Below are positions 11,242-31,167 of a stretch of 40,209 nucleotides of DNA, piece after piece. The stretch is taken from IMG/VR virus record IMGVR_UViG_3300044993_000127, positions 1 to 40,209 of that record. One strand, given 5' to 3'. The position numbers and the translations under genes are program-made. The DNA is from a virus. Every line of letters starts with the position of its first letter. Position 1 is the first letter of the stretch. A model generated the notes under the pieces. That model searched no databases and had not been told where the DNA came from. It saw only the letters and a program-made list of their open reading frames with translations.

Positions 11242-11610
11242 TCAGCGCCGGAAAAACAGTGCGGATGCCACGAGAACGACTGCCGTCAGCCCGATACGAG
11301 GCAAAAACGGCGGAACACTGACGACGCTGGGTGTAAATGAGTCCATTGCCGGAATCGAACCGGTTACTTCAGGGATGGCAGACCCGAAGCCCGAACCTGG
11401 TTGGACAGGGAAACCGGCCGAAGCCGGGACGAAGGGTAATGACTTGGTTATTGTTTGTTGGTTAGAGGAGAAGGAATCGCCACCCGCAGGATTCGAACCT
11501 GCAACCATCGGCTTTGGAGGCCGCTGCGCTCCCGATTGCGCCAGGGTGACAGAGACAGGGGCCACCGGCCCCGAGGATGGCACGTAGTTCGTAACAGGGA
11601 ACTCAGACAC
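11242..11610 (-). CDS. Doubtful ORF spanning the tRNA-Trp gene, with C-terminal membrane segment
   Basis: A GTG at 11610 opens 122 residues rich in Pro, Ser and Val and ending in a hydrophobic helix plus RR (LTAVVLVASALFFRR). The frame runs straight through the tRNA-Trp and the tRNA-Gly-like element, and parts of it (VAGSNPAG, VTGSIPAM) are the peptide phrases typically produced by translating tRNA T-arms. Against coding: this overlap. For coding: no stops, a membrane-like end, and a neighbour that also encodes a membrane protein. A shorter in-frame ATG at about 11343 would leave only 34 residues. Confidence 0.25.
   Translation of the reverse strand: MSEFPVTNYVPSSGPVAPVSVTLAQSGAQRPPKPMVAGSNPAGGDSFSSNQQTITKSLPFVPASAGFPVQPGSGFGSAIPEVTGSIPAMDSFTPSVVSVPPFLPRIGLTAVVLVASALFFRR
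11340..11406 (-). other. Degenerate tRNA-Gly(GCC)-like element
   Basis: On the minus strand, gtccaac at the 5' end and aatggac at the 3' end give five paired bases of an acceptor stem. A T-arm with loop ttcgatt follows an anticodon-like hairpin whose loop ctgccat holds GCC in the right place, and the discriminator is T, as in bacterial tRNA-Gly. The D-arm is missing (only 11 bases where about 18 are expected) and two acceptor pairs and one T-stem pair are broken. Most likely a decayed tRNA, about 70 bases downstream of the intact tRNA-Trp. Confidence 0.3.
11478..11550 (-). tRNA. trnW: tRNA-Trp (anticodon CCA)
   Basis: A complete 73-base cloverleaf: acceptor GTCACCC/GGGTGGC (one G-U pair), T at position 8, D-stem GCGC/GCGC with A14, G18-G19 and A21, anticodon loop CTCCAAA (anticodon CCA at 11515-11517), T-stem GCAGG/CCTGC with loop TTCGAAT, and G at position 73 as in bacterial tRNA-Trp. 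The 27-43 pair is a G-A mismatch; all other stems pair. The 3' CCA is not encoded (ATT follows), so the host CCA-adding enzyme is needed, a common trait of phage tRNAs. It lies in the leftward early operon between exonuclease and regulatory genes. Confidence 0.9.
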
Positions 11611-13835: not shown

Positions 13836-14084
13836 ATGGATAATGAGCCAAAATCATTCAAAGAACGATGGAAACGTTCTACTCGCAGCCAAAAGAATGG
13901 GTATATTGCTCTGGGTATATCGAGCGCCTTGATAATCGGTATGCAATTTACGTTTTTAGGCGGTCTGCCTTGGTGGGTTTACATTCTCTTCTGGCTGATG
14001 CTTGCTGGCGGTCTGGCAGGTGCCTTTAATCAGGGTTCTGCTAATCAAAATCTGGCCGATATGAACAAGTCAGATGAAAAATAG
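13836..14084 (+). CDS. Small two-helix membrane protein (82 aa)
   Basis: 82 residues from the ATG at 13836 (MDNEPKSFKERWKR); an earlier in-frame ATG at 13809 has no good ribosome binding site, whereas GGGAAGG precedes this one. A basic amphipathic N-terminus leads into two membrane helices (IALGISSALIIGMQFTFLGG and WWVYILFWLMLAGGLAGAF) and a short acidic tail. It overlaps the start of the serine recombinase gene by 11 bases, so the two are translationally coupled. Possibly a lysogenic-conversion or exclusion protein; no family is recognised. Confidence 0.6.
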   Translation: MDNEPKSFKERWKRSTRSQKNGYIALGISSALIIGMQFTFLGGLPWWVYILFWLMLAGGLAGAFNQGSANQNLADMNKSDEK

Positions 14085-15633
14085 CAGCTGTTTTCTTTAT
14101 GCCCGCGTCTCCTCCGACAAGCAAGAGGACGAAGGCTACAGCATTCCGGCCCAGCTCCGTATGCTCCAGGAGTATGCTGACCGCCAAGGCTTCACAGTGA
14201 CCGAGGAGTTCATCGACGTTGAAACCGCGAAGCAACCAGGCCGGTCTGCCTTCAATCGGATGGTTAAGGCACTAAAAGCCAAAAACGCCCCTAAAATCCT
14301 CCTAGTGGAGAAAACCGACCGTCTCACCCGTAATTACCATGATGAACTAACCATCAACAGCCTTGTGCAGGAACAAGGTGTGTCCGTCCACTACGTCAAA
14401 GAAGGCGAGATCATCTGCCAAAACGCCAGCTCCCACACGAAGCTGATACACAACATCAAAGTGGCCCTCGCCCAGCACTATGTGGACAACCTCTCCGAGG
14501 AAATCAAGAAAGGCAAGCGAGAAAAGGCCAAGCAAGGCGGATGGTCGAGTAAGGCTCCGCTCGGTTATCAAATGGTCAAGGGTGAGCTCCAGGTGGATCC
14601 GGAAGGTGCCGCTTTTGTAAAGAAAGCATTCAGCCTGTTTGCCTCTGGAATTTACTCACTGCGGGCCTGTGCCGATAAACTCTTCGAATCCGGATTGATT
14701 TATAAGCCTGGCATCCCGGTCATCCAAGCCGCCACGCTGCAGAAAATACTAACGAATCGTCTCTACCTGGGCGAGGTTCACAACAACGGAGAGCGTTACC
14801 CAGGCAGGCATCAGCCGCTGGTGGATGAAATCACATTTCAGCAGGCTCAGAGAGCACTCAGAAAAGACAATAAACCGCTCAGTTACACGGCAAACACCTT
14901 TGTGTTCCGTGGCATCGTCAACTGTGGTGAATGTGGCTCGCCGCTCGTTGGAGAGCTAAAAAAAGGCGGAAAATACACCTATTATCGGTGTGTCACGAAG
15001 GCGCACCGCGGGGAATGCTCCCAGGGTTACATCAACGAAATCAAGATGTCAGAAGCGGTCAAGCAAACGTTTCTCCGGATTCGCTTTCCGGAACACGTCA
15101 AAGATGCCATAGGCCTTGCAGTGGCTGAATCCGACAAAATCAAACAACGACAGGACGAGCACCAGGCCAGCGAGATTCGCAGAAAACTAACCAACGCCAA
15201 AAGCGCAATTCAGCAGGCATACAGAGACCGCACGGCCGGGATAATCGACGCTGAATTCTTTCAGGAGCTGGCCGCAGAGTACAAAGAAAAAATCCAAAAC
15301 TTAGAAATTGAGTTACAGGCCATCGGGAATGCGGATATCGATTATTACGAGACCGTTCAAATGTTGTTCGAACTCGGCGAAACCTTGTATTCAAGCTGGA
15401 TTGCAGGCACTGTGGAAGAAAACGCGTTACTTTTGAAATTGGTGTGTTCGAACTTTTCTGTCAAAGACGGAAACCCGCTCATTGAGCTGAAAGAACCGTT
15501 CCGAACATTGGCCAATACTGGCACTTGTAAACTTTGGTGGAGCAATAGAGAAGTAGCTCGAACGCTCCTGATACCTCTTCTTACGCAACACTCTGTTACA
15601 ATTAGAACAATGCATCAAGCCTTGTGTGCCTAA
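14074..15633 (+). CDS. int: Large serine recombinase (phage integrase)
   Basis: 519 residues. The N-terminal resolvase domain has the catalytic serine in FLYARVSSDKQ (S13), the supporting arginine in EKTDRLTRN (about residue 85) and the E helix thereafter. A recombinase domain (about 160-270, APLGYQMVKGELQVD) and a zinc ribbon (CGECGSPL, then YYRC and GEC, about 287-315) follow, with a coiled coil at about 350-410. This order is that of phiC31/Bxb1-type integrases, which join attP and attB without host factors. The start has little ribosome binding site but overlaps the preceding gene. No tyrosine integrase or excisionase is visible. Confidence 0.93.
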   Translation: MKNSSCFLYARVSSDKQEDEGYSIPAQLRMLQEYADRQGFTVTEEFIDVETAKQPGRSAFNRMVKALKAKNAPKILLVEKTDRLTRNYHDELTINSLVQEQGVSVHYVKEGEIICQNASSHTKLIHNIKVALAQHYVDNLSEEIKKGKREKAKQGGWSSKAPLGYQMVKGELQVDPEGAAFVKKAFSLFASGIYSLRACADKLFESGLIYKPGIPVIQAATLQKILTNRLYLGEVHNNGERYPGRHQPLVDEITFQQAQRALRKDNKPLSYTANTFVFRGIVNCGECGSPLVGELKKGGKYTYYRCVTKAHRGECSQGYINEIKMSEAVKQTFLRIRFPEHVKDAIGLAVAESDKIKQRQDEHQASEIRRKLTNAKSAIQQAYRDRTAGIIDAEFFQELAAEYKEKIQNLEIELQAIGNADIDYYETVQMLFELGETLYSSWIAGTVEENALLLKLVCSNFSVKDGNPLIELKEPFRTLANTGTCKLWWSNREVARTLLIPLLTQHSVTIRTMHQALCA

Positions 15634-16521: not shown

Positions 16522-16812
16522 ATGATTAAGACATTCGCTAACAAGCTCGCCGAAAATCTGTTTCACGGCAGATCATCCAAGGAAACCCGCAAGTTTCCGC
16601 ATGAGTTGCATCGTCGGTCAGAGCTTTTATTGGATGCCTTAAACGCTGCCACCGAACTGCAGGACATGGCTTCACCGCCGGGCAACCGACTGGAGAAGCT
16701 ATCGGGAGAGCTGCAGGACAAGTACAGCGTGCGAATCAATGATCAATGGCGGATTGTCTTCCGCTTTGAGAATGGAAACGCCCATGAGGTAGAAATACTC
16801 GACTATCACTAG
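16522..16812 (+). CDS. higB: HigB toxin (RelE superfamily mRNA interferase)
   Basis: 96 residues. The opening MIKTFANKLAENLFHGRSS and the ending YSVRINDQWRIVFRFENGNA with EVEILDYH match host-inhibition HigB/RelE toxins, including the basic residues (R and K in INDQWRIVF) that cut mRNA on the ribosome. It precedes its antitoxin, the typical order for HigBA. It is separated from the integrase unit by about 185 bases holding the terminator and promoter. Confidence 0.88.
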   Translation: MIKTFANKLAENLFHGRSSKETRKFPHELHRRSELLLDALNAATELQDMASPPGNRLEKLSGELQDKYSVRINDQWRIVFRFENGNAHEVEILDYH

Positions 16813-16879
16813 CAAAACCGACTAGCACCAGGGGCAATTAAGGTGAAGGATTGGACCAGTAACTAGGAGTTCGTGAGAC

Positions 16880-17167
16880 ATGCGCCCGAAAGAAAGGAAA
16901 CCAGCTCATCCTGGAGAAATTTTGGAAGAGTTGTATATAAAGCCCCTTGGTTTAAGCCAAGGACAGATTGCAGCGCACCTTGGTATTCAACGTGGACAAT
17001 TAAATAATATAATCCACGGCAAACAGGGTGTTACTCCGCGTCTTGCTCTGCGATTAGCAGACGCGTTTGGTACCACACCAGAGTTTTGGATGAATCTACA
17101 ATCCAATTGTGAGCTCTGGGAAGCAGCTAGAAAGCATGAAAGAATCACCGCTTTAGTAGCAGTCTAG
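16880..17167 (+). CDS. higA: HigA antitoxin (XRE family)
   Basis: 95 residues. The HPGEILEELYIKPLGLS start, the helix-turn-helix GQIAAHLGIQRGQLNNIIHG (about residues 27-47) and the TPEFWMNLQSNCELW stretch near the end are the HigA/VapI signature. An AGGAG site lies well placed before the ATG at 16880. It neutralises HigB and represses the pair. The stop overlaps that of the convergent patatin gene, which marks the border between the lysogeny and late regions. Confidence 0.9.
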   Translation: MRPKERKPAHPGEILEELYIKPLGLSQGQIAAHLGIQRGQLNNIIHGKQGVTPRLALRLADAFGTTPEFWMNLQSNCELWEAARKHERITALVAV

Positions 17168-18024
17168 CCCCACTGGCTGTACGAGCCGAGCTTGCCCTGG
17201 CGGAAGAGGGCGCGCTTGGTGTCTCGGTCGATGTTGAAGTCGGCGGTATCCACGTTCTTAACTGGTGAGGCCAGGTCATACAACCGTGGGTCGATGACCT
17301 TGAGCTTGGCGAACCTTGCCAGGGCCATGCGATGACGGGTGGCTGCCGTCACCTCGTAGGCATAGAGCGCCCGCTTGAGCAAACCATTCGGCGTGGTGTC
17401 ACCGCCTCGGTTGACTGTGCCAGGGAAGCCAAGGACGATGGCGGTCACGTCGGCGTCAGCAGGCAGAAAACTCAATGGTGGATGCTCACCAAGGCCGCCA
17501 TCCATCCAGCGGCGTGAATCGGCTACCAGGCCAGGCAGGGCCATCGAACGTGTGAGAACCGTGCCAAAGCCCAGGTCCGTGAATGCGTTTTCCACCCATA
17601 CGGTTTTGACGGTGGCCGATTCAATCACGCCCTCTGGTTTACGATGGCAGTAGAGCACCTGGGCGTTGTCTTCCGCATCCCAGGCATTGATGACCAGGCC
17701 GTTGACCGGTTCAAGCTGAAGGCTGTCCAGGTAGGCCGCTACCCGGTTGAGCTCTACTGGCTTGGCCAGAATGCCAAGCTCTCGAATTTTCCATGGAATC
17801 CAGCCGCTCAACAGGCCTTTGAAATCAGACCGCTCGAAAAAACTGGCCATCTCCAAAGGGCTCCAGTGATTGGCAGCCAGGGCCGCTACCAGGGCGCCAA
17901 ATGAATCGCCAGTGATGATGTCATAGCGATGCGGGTGATAGTGCCCCATCATCTCGCCTGCGCGTAACACGCCAGCCAGGGCGATGCCTCGAACGCCGCC
18001 ACCGGCGATGGAAAGTGCTTTCAT
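17164..18024 (-). CDS. Patatin-like phospholipase
   Basis: 286 residues from the ATG at 18024, which overlaps the endolysin stop by four bases; a longer frame to 18216 is only the shadow of that gene. The patatin marks are all present: oxyanion loop AGGGVRG (about residues 7-13), nucleophile elbow GDSFG (about 39-43) and the catalytic aspartate in WMDGGLGE (about 180). The family hydrolyses acyl chains of phospholipids with a Ser-Asp dyad. No signal peptide is seen. As the last gene of the late operon, coupled to the endolysin, it may attack host membranes at lysis; alternatively it may serve host takeover. Confidence 0.88.
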   Translation of the reverse strand: MKALSIAGGGVRGIALAGVLRAGEMMGHYHPHRYDIITGDSFGALVAALAANHWSPLEMASFFERSDFKGLLSGWIPWKIRELGILAKPVELNRVAAYLDSLQLEPVNGLVINAWDAEDNAQVLYCHRKPEGVIESATVKTVWVENAFTDLGFGTVLTRSMALPGLVADSRRWMDGGLGEHPPLSFLPADADVTAIVLGFPGTVNRGGDTTPNGLLKRALYAYEVTAATRHRMALARFAKLKVIDPRLYDLASPVKNVDTADFNIDRDTKRALFRQGKLGSYSQWG

Positions 18025-18452
18025 GGATACGTCCACCGTGCTCTCTTGGGCCTCGTGTCGATATGGCACCAGGTGTTGGCCTTGCCGTAGCCTCCGGGCC
18101 AATTGTCCAGGTCGAGCGTTTTCTGCTCTCTGGCTGAACAATCGAAATCGACTGCCGTGGCCAGCAGGTGCTCGCTTTTTTCGCCGCCGCCCGCCTGGGC
18201 GTTGGCCACCGGGCAAGAATAGCCGCGATTCGGAACCACCCGCCTGCCGAGTTTGGAATTAAAGCGTTCCAGGTGCCCGGCCAGGGTTTTGAGGCGCTCT
18301 GTGTAGAGTTTTTGCTTGTCGACCGGCAGACACCCAAAGTAGTCCCAGGAAAGCTGGTCAAACACCCGTCTGCCGTTGATGAGTCGCACAAAAAAGTGTT
18401 GCAGCTGGTACTGGGGGCTCAGGTGGTCCGTCAGTTTATAAATATGGGGCAT
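18021..18452 (-). CDS. Endolysin, M15 peptidase (D-Ala-D-Ala carboxypeptidase-like)
   Basis: 143 residues from the ATG at 18452 (MPHIYKLTDHLSPQ), preceded by a strong AGGAGG site. The zinc ligands of M15A peptidases are visible: SEHLLATAVDFD with the HxxxxxxD pattern (about residues 96-107) and CHID near the end (about 132-135). RVVPNRGYSCPVANAQAGG matches the substrate groove region. The family cuts peptidoglycan cross-links. No signal peptide is present, so a holin is needed; the membrane protein at 19902-20225 is the candidate. Confidence 0.85.
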   Translation of the reverse strand: MPHIYKLTDHLSPQYQLQHFFVRLINGRRVFDQLSWDYFGCLPVDKQKLYTERLKTLAGHLERFNSKLGRRVVPNRGYSCPVANAQAGGGEKSEHLLATAVDFDCSAREQKTLDLDNWPGGYGKANTWCHIDTRPKRARWTYP

Positions 18453-18465
18453 GGCTGCCTCCTGA

Positions 18466-19896
18466 TTAGGTGAGTGCAGTGACACAGGCCGCGGCGTTGG
18501 TTGCGCCGATGGCGACCCCGGCGGCCTTGGGATGAATCTTGTCGGTCTCGTAGTACGTCGTGTTGGCCGGGTCGTCCCCGTCATCGAAATACTCGTTATT
18601 GCCCCACTGGGACAGCGCATTGATGCCATAGGCCGATGGATTGGCCTCAACAGCGGCGATTAAGTCCCGGATTTTGGCTGTAATGGCAACCGATGTCCGG
18701 GCAATCGGCAGCGAGTACCCCAGAGGCATCCCGTGGTGGTAACTTTTCCATTGGGCTGCCAACGCGGTAAGGCGCTCTAAGGTGGTGGCCACCGTCTGGC
18801 CATTGGGCAATAAACCGCCAGAGGTATCGGTGGTAAGGTCATTGGTGCCAGCGTGAAGCAACCCGATGACGTCGAGTCGTGAGGATTCCGGCACATAAAG
18901 ATCCGTGGCGATTCTGGCCCAGTGGGTAGTGCGTAGCGTTTCCAAGGTGGCGCCATCCACTCCCAGGCTGTGAACGTAATCGGTGGCATTACCGCCCAGC
19001 TCGACGGCCAGCTTGGCATAGAGCTTGTCGGCTTCGGCCACGATGTTGCTGTTGAAGCTGATGGAATCACCGGTTAGCAACACCAGGCGATTGAGCAGTA
19101 CGCCAGGACGAATGTTCTGGTCGATGTTCTGGGTGAGCCCCCACATTTGCGCATCCGTCCAAACACCTGGTCCGATTAGTAGCGTGTCAAAATGCCCTAA
19201 AAAGAAATTACCAGCGCCTAAATTAGAACCTAAAAGGCTATTTTGAGCACGAGAATTGGTGATAGTGGTTCCGCTGCCAACAGCTGACCCAAAGTTCTCA
19301 ATAGTGCCCACGCGATAGCCGCCTCGATAGAGACGAGCGCGTCGGTTAATATAATCGACGGTACCGCCGTAAACCTGCCATTTGCTGGCATCGTTTAAAT
19401 AGCCTGCTGTTGCGGTAGACGTTGTATCCGCGTCGAGTTTTCTACCTTGGACTTTGACGCCGCTAGCGGTAAGGTTCAAACCGGCCCGGTTGATACTACC
19501 CGATGCGGCGGTACTCATTGACCATATGCAACGCTCTGCAGAAAAATTATCTGATTTTACAAGCGCCAAGACAGAATAACCATTAGCACCATTGAGTAAA
19601 TCCCTGATAGACGTATCCCCGAACAAATGGCGAGCGCCATCGAGGTATAACGCTTGTCGGCTGTCTACGCTTTCAGGTAACGGCATTCTGGCATCTGTCA
19701 TCGTTTCAAAGTAACTAGCCGTGTTTCGACTTGTCCAACGCTGTACTCGTCCGCCATTAGCTTCTTTAGGCGTTATGCCTTGGGTTGAGTCCATCCAGAT
19801 AAGCCCAGGAATTGAGAGCGGATCGACAGGACCCAGGCCAGACTGGCCCATAAACCCGGATATTCCGGACATTCCCGATAACCCGCTGAGTCCCAT
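18466..19896 (-). CDS. Tail-associated SGNH hydrolase with glycine-rich N-terminus and lectin-like domain
   Basis: 476 residues in three parts. Residues 1-22 are a glycine/serine repeat (MGLSGLSGMSGISGFMGQSG). About 25-245 is a beta-rich domain of the concanavalin/LamG type (LYLDGARHLFGD, ALVKSDNF, NDASKWQVYGG). About 265-476 is an SGNH esterase with LLTGDSISF (nucleophile), HAGTNDL (Asn block) and KIHPKAAG (His/Asp block). Such proteins deacetylate surface polysaccharide, so this is probably a receptor-modifying tail fibre or depolymerase. It lies between the fibre genes and the endolysin. Confidence 0.8.
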   Translation of the reverse strand: MGLSGLSGMSGISGFMGQSGLGPVDPLSIPGLIWMDSTQGITPKEANGGRVQRWTSRNTASYFETMTDARMPLPESVDSRQALYLDGARHLFGDTSIRDLLNGANGYSVLALVKSDNFSAERCIWSMSTAASGSINRAGLNLTASGVKVQGRKLDADTTSTATAGYLNDASKWQVYGGTVDYINRRARLYRGGYRVGTIENFGSAVGSGTTITNSRAQNSLLGSNLGAGNFFLGHFDTLLIGPGVWTDAQMWGLTQNIDQNIRPGVLLNRLVLLTGDSISFNSNIVAEADKLYAKLAVELGGNATDYVHSLGVDGATLETLRTTHWARIATDLYVPESSRLDVIGLLHAGTNDLTTDTSGGLLPNGQTVATTLERLTALAAQWKSYHHGMPLGYSLPIARTSVAITAKIRDLIAAVEANPSAYGINALSQWGNNEYFDDGDDPANTTYYETDKIHPKAAGVAIGATNAAACVTALT

Positions 19897-28750: not shown

Positions 28751-29126
28751 GCTTCCTGCGCCTTATTGGCTTCGATACAGGTATTGGCCCAGAACGTTAA
28801 CTGGCCAGCTGTGAGTTTTTCGATGTCGCGAATTCCGCCGCCACACTGGCAAGCGAGTCTCCAGGCAATAACCGCCCAATCTTCAGGGAATCGGGCAAAA
28901 AAGGTGTCACGGCGCTTTCGAGCTTGTCGAAGTCATCCAGCATCATTTCACCCAGTGCGCCTGGTGTGATTCCGGCCAGTGTACCAACCAAGGCATAAAT
29001 GCGTTCTTCGGCGTTGGTTAGATGCGCCGTCTCGCGCATGTGCTTGACTCGGGGTTCTTTGATCTGAACCGTGGTCGTCATCTGCCCGTCAATCTCAACG
29101 GGATTTTTTAACTCAACGGTGATCAT
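28720..29126 (-). CDS. Tail assembly chaperone, -1 frameshift fusion product
   Basis: The fusion shares 77 codons with the shorter gene at 28797-29126. At the slippery heptamer T TTT TTG (28902-28896) a -1 shift opens a 58-codon extension ending at TAG 28720-28722 (begins ARFPEDWAVIAWRLACQCGG). The extension is plainly protein-like, with the pattern DWAVIAWRLAC, DIEKLTAGQLTFWA. Expected product: about 135 residues, made in small amounts. Tailed phages typically make chaperone pairs this way just before the tape measure gene, and P2 uses the same TTTTTTG string. The extension overlaps the tape measure start by about 30 bases. Confidence 0.8.
28797..29126 (-). CDS. Tail assembly chaperone, unshifted product (Mu gp41 / E family)
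   Basis: 109 residues in frame 0. MITVELKNPVEIDGQMTTTV and EERIYALVGTLAGITPGALG fit the phage tail assembly chaperone E/41/14 family. It guides tail tube polymerisation on the tape measure and is absent from the virion. Its last 32 codons overlap the -1 frame of the fusion product. The ATG overlaps the tail tube gene stop by four bases. Confidence 0.85.
   Translation of the reverse strand: MITVELKNPVEIDGQMTTTVQIKEPRVKHMRETAHLTNAEERIYALVGTLAGITPGALGEMMLDDFDKLESAVTPFLPDSLKIGRLLPGDSLASVAAEFATSKNSQLAS
28896..28902 (-). promoter_or_regulatory. Programmed -1 ribosomal frameshift site (T TTT TTG)
   Basis: In frame 0 the codons TTT and TTG occupy 28901-28896; the preceding base is also T, so both tRNAs can slip back and re-pair. 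The -1 frame then stays open for 58 codons. No strong downstream pseudoknot was checked. Confidence 0.8.
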
Positions 29127-29488
29127 GCCTGAGCCACGCTTTCTTGGATTTCAACACCTTCCCAGCGCACGTTGAACTTGCCCTCAACCGCATCCAGCTC
29201 AATGGCTGTAACCACCCAGGCATTCCGGAGGACGTAACGGGTGCCGTCGATGAGTTCGGCGGTAATTGTCGCATCCTTCTGGTCTTTGATTTTTTGAACC
29301 GAGATGCCCTTACGTGTTAGCTCTGCCTCAATAAATGGGGGCTTGGGCATCTCTTTATACCCGTGGACGGCATCAACACCCACAATGGTCTCTCGCTCCA
29401 GGTCAGAGACGCCAACGGTGACCGAGCCGCCCAGGGCTACAAGCTCACCGTCGATTTTTAGAAATACTTTTCCCGCAATTGCGCCCAT
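29123..29488 (-). CDS. Tail tube protein (Mu gpM-like)
   Basis: 121 residues of the contractile-tail tube fold. The pieces GKVFLKIDGELVALGGSVTV, GVDAVHGYKE and MPKPPFIEAELT are typical of Mu gpM, whose hexameric rings form the inner tube. It lies downstream of the sheath gene as in Mu and upstream of the chaperone. Confidence 0.9.
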   Translation of the reverse strand: MGAIAGKVFLKIDGELVALGGSVTVGVSDLERETIVGVDAVHGYKEMPKPPFIEAELTRKGISVQKIKDQKDATITAELIDGTRYVLRNAWVVTAIELDAVEGKFNVRWEGVEIQESVAQA

Positions 29489-29506: not shown

Positions 29507-30982
29507 TTACAATCTGAACTGGATCTGGGTGGCGATGATCCGCAGCTGGTTGACGAGATCCGGCGGAAGCAGGATATTGACCCGGTTCGGGTCACTGCCG
29601 TCACGCTCCACCACCAGGTCGTCCTTGAACTGGTCGACGTTTTCCACCAGGCCGTTCTCTTCCCAGAGCCCGAACAACGCGATGCACTCGTCCCGGATAT
29701 CGCGAGGTGTGACCAAGGCCTGACCAACACCCACGCGGGTGCCGTCGTCGGCAATTTTGTATCGTGGAAACTTGAGCTTCATCCGAGTCCGGAACGATTG
29801 AGACAAGTAGGCCAGGGTTGCCATCGTCTCTGTGTCAAGGTAGGACGGATCTGGTGCGCTTGCCACGTTGAGCTGGTAGGTCGTCGCTGCCCGCTCGATG
29901 CGTACGGTACCATCGCGATCCACACTGAATGTGGCGATGCCGTCGGTGAGCAGAATATTTCGTTCACTCAACAGGAACCGGCTCGTCAATGGTGGCGCGA
30001 GAACGCCTTTAAGATCCAGCGTCTGCAACGGCCTGGCCGGGTCGATGGTCAGGTAGTAGGCCGCCACCGCCGCGTACGCCGCTGCCCATTCATAGGGGGG
30101 TGTCGGGCTATCGTTGTAACCCATAATCGTCAAGTGCTGGCTGTTGTGCGAATTGCCCAGGGTGGTTAAATTCGCCACCGTGGCCCGGTGCGCCGAAAAA
30201 GCATGTGACTCCAGCAATACCAACGGCCCCCAGCGCAGCGTTAACTCGGTTTTCAACGCTGACAGGTTGGTGCTGTCGGTGTAAGGGTTGACGATGAAAT
30301 CATAGATTTCCTCGGGCATGGCATCGATTGCGGTTTGCAGTGTCGGGTTGGTCGTTCCGGAAGCCATCGCCGTGATGGTCAGCGTCACGCCCGCCGGTGT
30401 TTTCTCGCCGCCCAGGCTGCCCCGGTAATTGGTGCGGATGTCGATATCATTGCCCCACAGACCCTTGTGCCTGCAAGCGATGGTCACGGTGGCCGTATCA
30501 ACAGTAGAGGTCACTGGCAAGTCGGCTGCCGCGTTGATGGCTGCATTGATGGCGGTCGCAATACTGCTGGCGGTATCGGCTGTGGTCACGCCAATGGTGA
30601 GACGCTGGCCAGCAATATAGAGATTAATCGTACCGGCCTCGGTCGGTGTGCCACTCACCACAATCGTACCGGTGGCGGCAACGCCGGAGCCGTTGTCGTC
30701 CAGAGCAATGGCCTAGGACTCGGTGTAGTTGTTATTGAGTTTTAAGGCCTTAAACATATTGGCCAGCTGGGAGCCACGGCCAAAATAGGTGACGGCCTGC
30801 TCGTAGCTGGTCACCAGTGTTGGAACGCCAGCGGCTACAGTACCGGCAGATAAGCGCTGCCCGAACACCATCAGACGGGTGGCAAATCGAATCAGCCCCT
30901 TGTTGGCTTTCGTGTTGTCAATTTCGACGTAAACACCAGGAACCCGAATATTCGACGGGATCGTATTAAATGAAACGGCCAC
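29507..30982 (-). pseudogene. Tail sheath protein (Mu gpL-like), interrupted by an in-frame amber codon
   Basis: The frame runs 492 codons from the ATG at 30982 to the stop at 29507, the length of Mu gpL (495 residues). The opening AVSFNTIPSNIRVPGVYVEI is the gpL signature and the C-terminal half is intact (RDIRDECIALFGLWEENGLV). The only defect is TAG at 30713-30715 (codon 90), splitting TES from AIALDDNG without any frameshift. An 89-residue fragment and an internal start at 30661 would not make a sheath. Because this is a single substitution it may be a natural amber mutation, a sequencing error or a suppressed stop. TAG is used as a normal stop by the capsid gene and others here, so global recoding is unlikely. 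Confidence 0.9.
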
Positions 30983-31167
30983 TACTTATCGCCTCCCTTG
31001 TTTTTCTGAGGCGAGGATTCTGCCTCGGATGCCAATACCACATCCCCATCAGCCAGCCGACGCCGCCAATAGGTCGTATCCGTCACGGCAGCGCCTTCCG
31101 GCGGCAGAATCCGCAACGTGTGTGGGTCACGGATGACCAGACTCGGGTGTGCAGGCTTTACATACAC
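30982..31167 (-). CDS. Mu gp38-like small tail protein (DUF2635)
   Basis: 61 residues from a GTG at 31167 with a GGGAG site. VKPAHPSLVIRDPHTLRILP and EGAAVTDTTYWRRRLADGDV match the DUF2635 family that precedes the sheath gene in Mu-like tails. Its stop meets the sheath ATG. Its function is unknown even in the model phages. An 86-base gap before the next upstream gene holds nothing clear. Confidence 0.8.
   Translation of the reverse strand: MYVKPAHPSLVIRDPHTLRILPPEGAAVTDTTYWRRRLADGDVVLASEAESSPQKNKGGDK

Follow-up and report, generated by a model that had tools for sequence, protein, structure and literature searches.

The question raised by this locus is how a single in-frame TAG codon came to interrupt an otherwise complete tail sheath gene, and whether the phage can still make a full-length sheath from it. 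The gene lies in a stretch of 40,209 nucleotides, hereafter the window, which covers positions 1 to 40,209 of the virus record IMGVR_UViG_3300044993_000127 from IMG/VR. An initial annotation of the window had put forward a natural amber mutation, a sequencing error and read-through as the options, which proved to be the right set to compare.

The sheath gene is located on the minus strand at 29507–30982, and direct reading indicated that its frame runs from a GTG start codon at 30982–30980 to a TAA at 29507, comprising 492 codons including the final TAA. The TAG reported at codon 90 of this frame was present at 30713–30715 of the minus strand (CTA in plus-strand letters), dividing the gene into an 89-codon open stretch for the N-terminal part of the sheath (30716–30982, minus strand) and a 401-codon open stretch with the final TAA (29507–30712, minus strand), in which sheath homology is kept to the C-terminus. 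The flanking residues were as previously quoted, LNNNYTES before and AIALDDNGSG after, and protein comparison indicated that the homology spans residues 2–492, through the TAG. The Pfam sheath domains PF04984, PF17482 and PF17481 were all found downstream of the TAG; PF04984 (83.2 bits) and PF17482 (68.4 bits) both exceeded the Pfam cutoff, giving the combination of Phage_sheath_1 and a C-terminal sheath domain, and the PF17481 match was below its curated cutoff. The frame was also a profile match to the solved sheath chain 9khy, and the protein was 52% identical to the sheath of Bordetella phage PY223 and 44% identical to Mu gpL. Judged by homology, the gene is a member of the gpL family, interrupted as recorded. 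It shares full-length homology with the family members in PY223, Mu and SfMu, which are uninterrupted, whereas the copy in this phage does not have the uninterrupted full-length reading frame of a Mu-type gpL sheath, owing to the one internal TAG at codon 90. Because the 401 codons past the TAG keep full homology and a coding-like GC3 (0.73, compared with 0.62 before the TAG), there is no sign of long decay.

The surroundings of the gene are those of a Mu-type tail module. Directly upstream, a DUF2635 gene resembling Mu gp38 (30982–31167, minus strand; PF10948, E 2.9e-16) ends in a TAG that shares one base with the sheath GTG, and directly downstream is an intact tail tube gene (29123–29488, minus strand; PHROG 185, E 2.9e-24), followed by chaperone, tape measure and baseplate genes in the usual order, the succession from DUF2635 to the tape measure being the same as in PY223, Mu and SfMu. 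The remaining head and tail genes seen looked whole, which, within the coverage of the PHROG profiles, bears out the earlier statement that the other virion genes are intact. The tail region also contains a protein (18466–19896, minus strand) without a PHROG match, in which a weak GDSL lipase/acylhydrolase domain was seen.

The description of the phage as Mu-type was borne out for the tail module but not for the phage as a whole, which encodes a large serine recombinase at 14074–15633 and for which no Mu transposase was found among the open reading frames scanned. RecE/RecT, a helicase and a terminase are also encoded, as is the Mu-like tail, and the phage thus appears to be temperate, with a serine integrase and a tail of Mu type, and not a transposable Mu. 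Both contig ends (1–363 and 39744–40209) seem to cut phage genes, those of a small MSYDVSFEID protein at the left and a DNA methyltransferase at the right, so that a short part of what would be a circular map may be missing from the record. With phage genes on both sides of the serine integrase and ends that seem to cut through such genes, the contig looks more like an excised or packaged genome from which a small piece is missing than like a prophage flanked by host DNA.

To place the TAG in the family, sheath relatives were drawn from records of phages, from viral contigs, from a single genome contig and from prophages of 398 genomes belonging to the same phylum as that contig, with the stop entered as Trp in the query protein and as X for the tree, as a device that makes no claim on the residue. 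We counted 121 loci with at least 400 aligned residues, corresponding to 112 distinct proteins. None of the 121 loci had an internal stop, a count that is slightly biased toward whole genes by the viral loci being the best-scoring 80 of 599. Within the same sample, with its viral loci the best 80 of 599, the residue at the column of the TAG was Trp in 71 of the 112 distinct sheaths, Tyr in 13, Gln in 9 and Thr in 5, with Val, Phe and His in 3 each and a few others in the rest. Thus, 93 of the 112 had Trp, Tyr or Gln, the codons for which were nearly all one base from TAG (7 of the 9 Gln were encoded by CAG). In a FastTree tree, 11 of the 12 nearest sheaths had Trp at the column, the exception being Val, in agreement with the suggestion in the initial annotation that Trp is common at this site in relatives. 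Because the closest sheath among those fetched (viral loci, best 80 of 599) was only about 55% identical, an ancestral Trp in this lineage is something we infer rather than see. No near-identical phage was found by megablast in phages, by an exact pattern scan around the TAG site in viral contigs or through the terminase. As far as can be seen, the stop appears to be private to this record.

The use of TAG as a sense codon throughout the phage (code 15) was rejected. Among 40 listed genes, which were picked by hand from the open reading frames such that unlisted genes broken elsewhere could be missed, the terminal stops were TGA in 14, TAA in 14 and TAG in 12, and across about 10,600 codons no stop other than the sheath TAG lay inside a gene. 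The phage uses the standard code. TAG-recoded phages likewise have in-frame TAG in structural genes, as in the code 15 crAss-like phages with recoding in several structural proteins (PMC9523058) and in phAss-1, where 41 ORFs contain TAG and three suppressor tRNAs have the CTA anticodon (PMC10607447). They differ in having TAG in many genes and often CTA suppressor tRNAs, whereas this phage has one such TAG, terminates genes with TAG and has no suppressor detectable by ARAGORN or Rfam, even when the tRNA region was scanned permissively. The sole tRNA found in the window was a tRNA-Trp (11477–11551, minus strand; ARAGORN; Rfam RF00005, 59.2 bits), and its CCA anticodon is not expected to read UAG, in agreement with the initial annotation. 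In the known UGA-reading tRNA-Trp, a D-arm position is mutated to A. The phage tRNA-Trp has G at this position and, together with its anticodon, was accordingly rejected as a UAG suppressor. About 110 bases after it, the sequence aaccggttcgattccggcaatggactc (11337–11364, minus strand) resembles the T-arm and 3' end of a second tRNA; it gave no tRNA call by ARAGORN or Rfam, and is possibly a tRNA remnant.

The TAG is therefore very probably a single-base difference, in the form of either a genuine spontaneous nonsense allele or a wrong consensus base, and not a case of recoding. With Trp in 71, Tyr in 13 and Gln in 9 of the distinct sheaths, the simplest origin would be a change of one step, with a Trp codon as the most likely starting point; since 3.7% of random substitutions in the genes of this genome were computed to create a stop, a single chance change or error would suffice. 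The TAG would end sheath translation after 89 residues, from which we infer a loss of sheath function, and if the base is real, no contractile tail would be made in a normal host, and the phage could persist only in the lysogenic state, with a sister phage that complements the defect or in an amber-suppressor host. Spontaneous amber mutants of phage structural genes are similar, in that one TAG, a single base away from a sense codon, interrupts a late gene that is essential, although the present case is known as a sequence record and may be a consensus error. The TAG is most likely an ordinary chance mutation or sequencing slip.

A natural nonsense mutation, meaning that the sheath gene is really broken in the phage or lysogen that was sampled, has in our judgment about an even chance of being correct. 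The phage looks temperate, with a serine integrase, so that a dead late gene can be carried in a lysogen, and a simple transition would turn the codon most common at the column into the TAG. Against this, the lesion would have to be very recent, with all the other head and tail genes seen looking whole. A dead tail gene is also slightly surprising because the contig, with phage genes flanking the integrase, resembles a genome that was excised or packaged more than one that is integrated and decaying. Should the base be real, the record would show a temperate phage whose contractile tail has been knocked out naturally.

A consensus error, either a sequencing or assembly slip or a minor allele taken into the contig consensus, is a reasonable possibility that we hold tentatively. 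It would fit one isolated base in an otherwise intact genome, a stop shared by none of the relatives and a virus record from IMG/VR, but there is locally no homopolymer or repeat to make an error especially likely. Were it an error, the TAG would illustrate why a stop made by a single base in an assembled contig should be backed by reads.

Suppression, in which a tolerated residue is inserted at the TAG by an amber suppressor tRNA of the host or by leaky read-through to give a full-length sheath, is unlikely. Gln and Tyr are residues commonly inserted by amber suppressors, and both occur at the column, where most relatives have Trp, Tyr or Gln. However, the phage itself has no suppressor tRNA, and TAG terminates 12 of its other listed genes. 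RNA folding around and after the TAG was no better than that of shuffled sequences (z of -1.39, 0.74 and -0.43, i.e., about -1.4 to +0.7), so that neither the stimulatory structure nor the conservation of the stop in relatives that marks programmed read-through was found. Furthermore, the sheath is needed in many copies, for which weak read-through would not suffice. It is highly doubtful that the host carries a natural amber suppressor on which the phage depends or which it uses as a switch for the sheath; this alone would make the TAG important, which is ordinary whether it is a real allele or a consensus error.

A split sheath, in which the 89-residue N-terminal piece and a restarted C-terminal piece act together, is extremely improbable, since the position of the TAG about ten residues ahead of the Pfam beta-sandwich domain and the first in-frame restart codons after it (GTG at 108 and 109) would suit it, but no clear Shine-Dalgarno sequence was found upstream of these codons and the gene was split in none of the 121 relatives (viral loci, best 80 of 599).

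Near the serine integrase, the window also contains, at 16522–18216, a pair of genes for a HigB-like toxin and an HTH antitoxin and, after them on the opposite strand, one for a patatin-like phospholipase, all of which are likely accessory (moron) genes.
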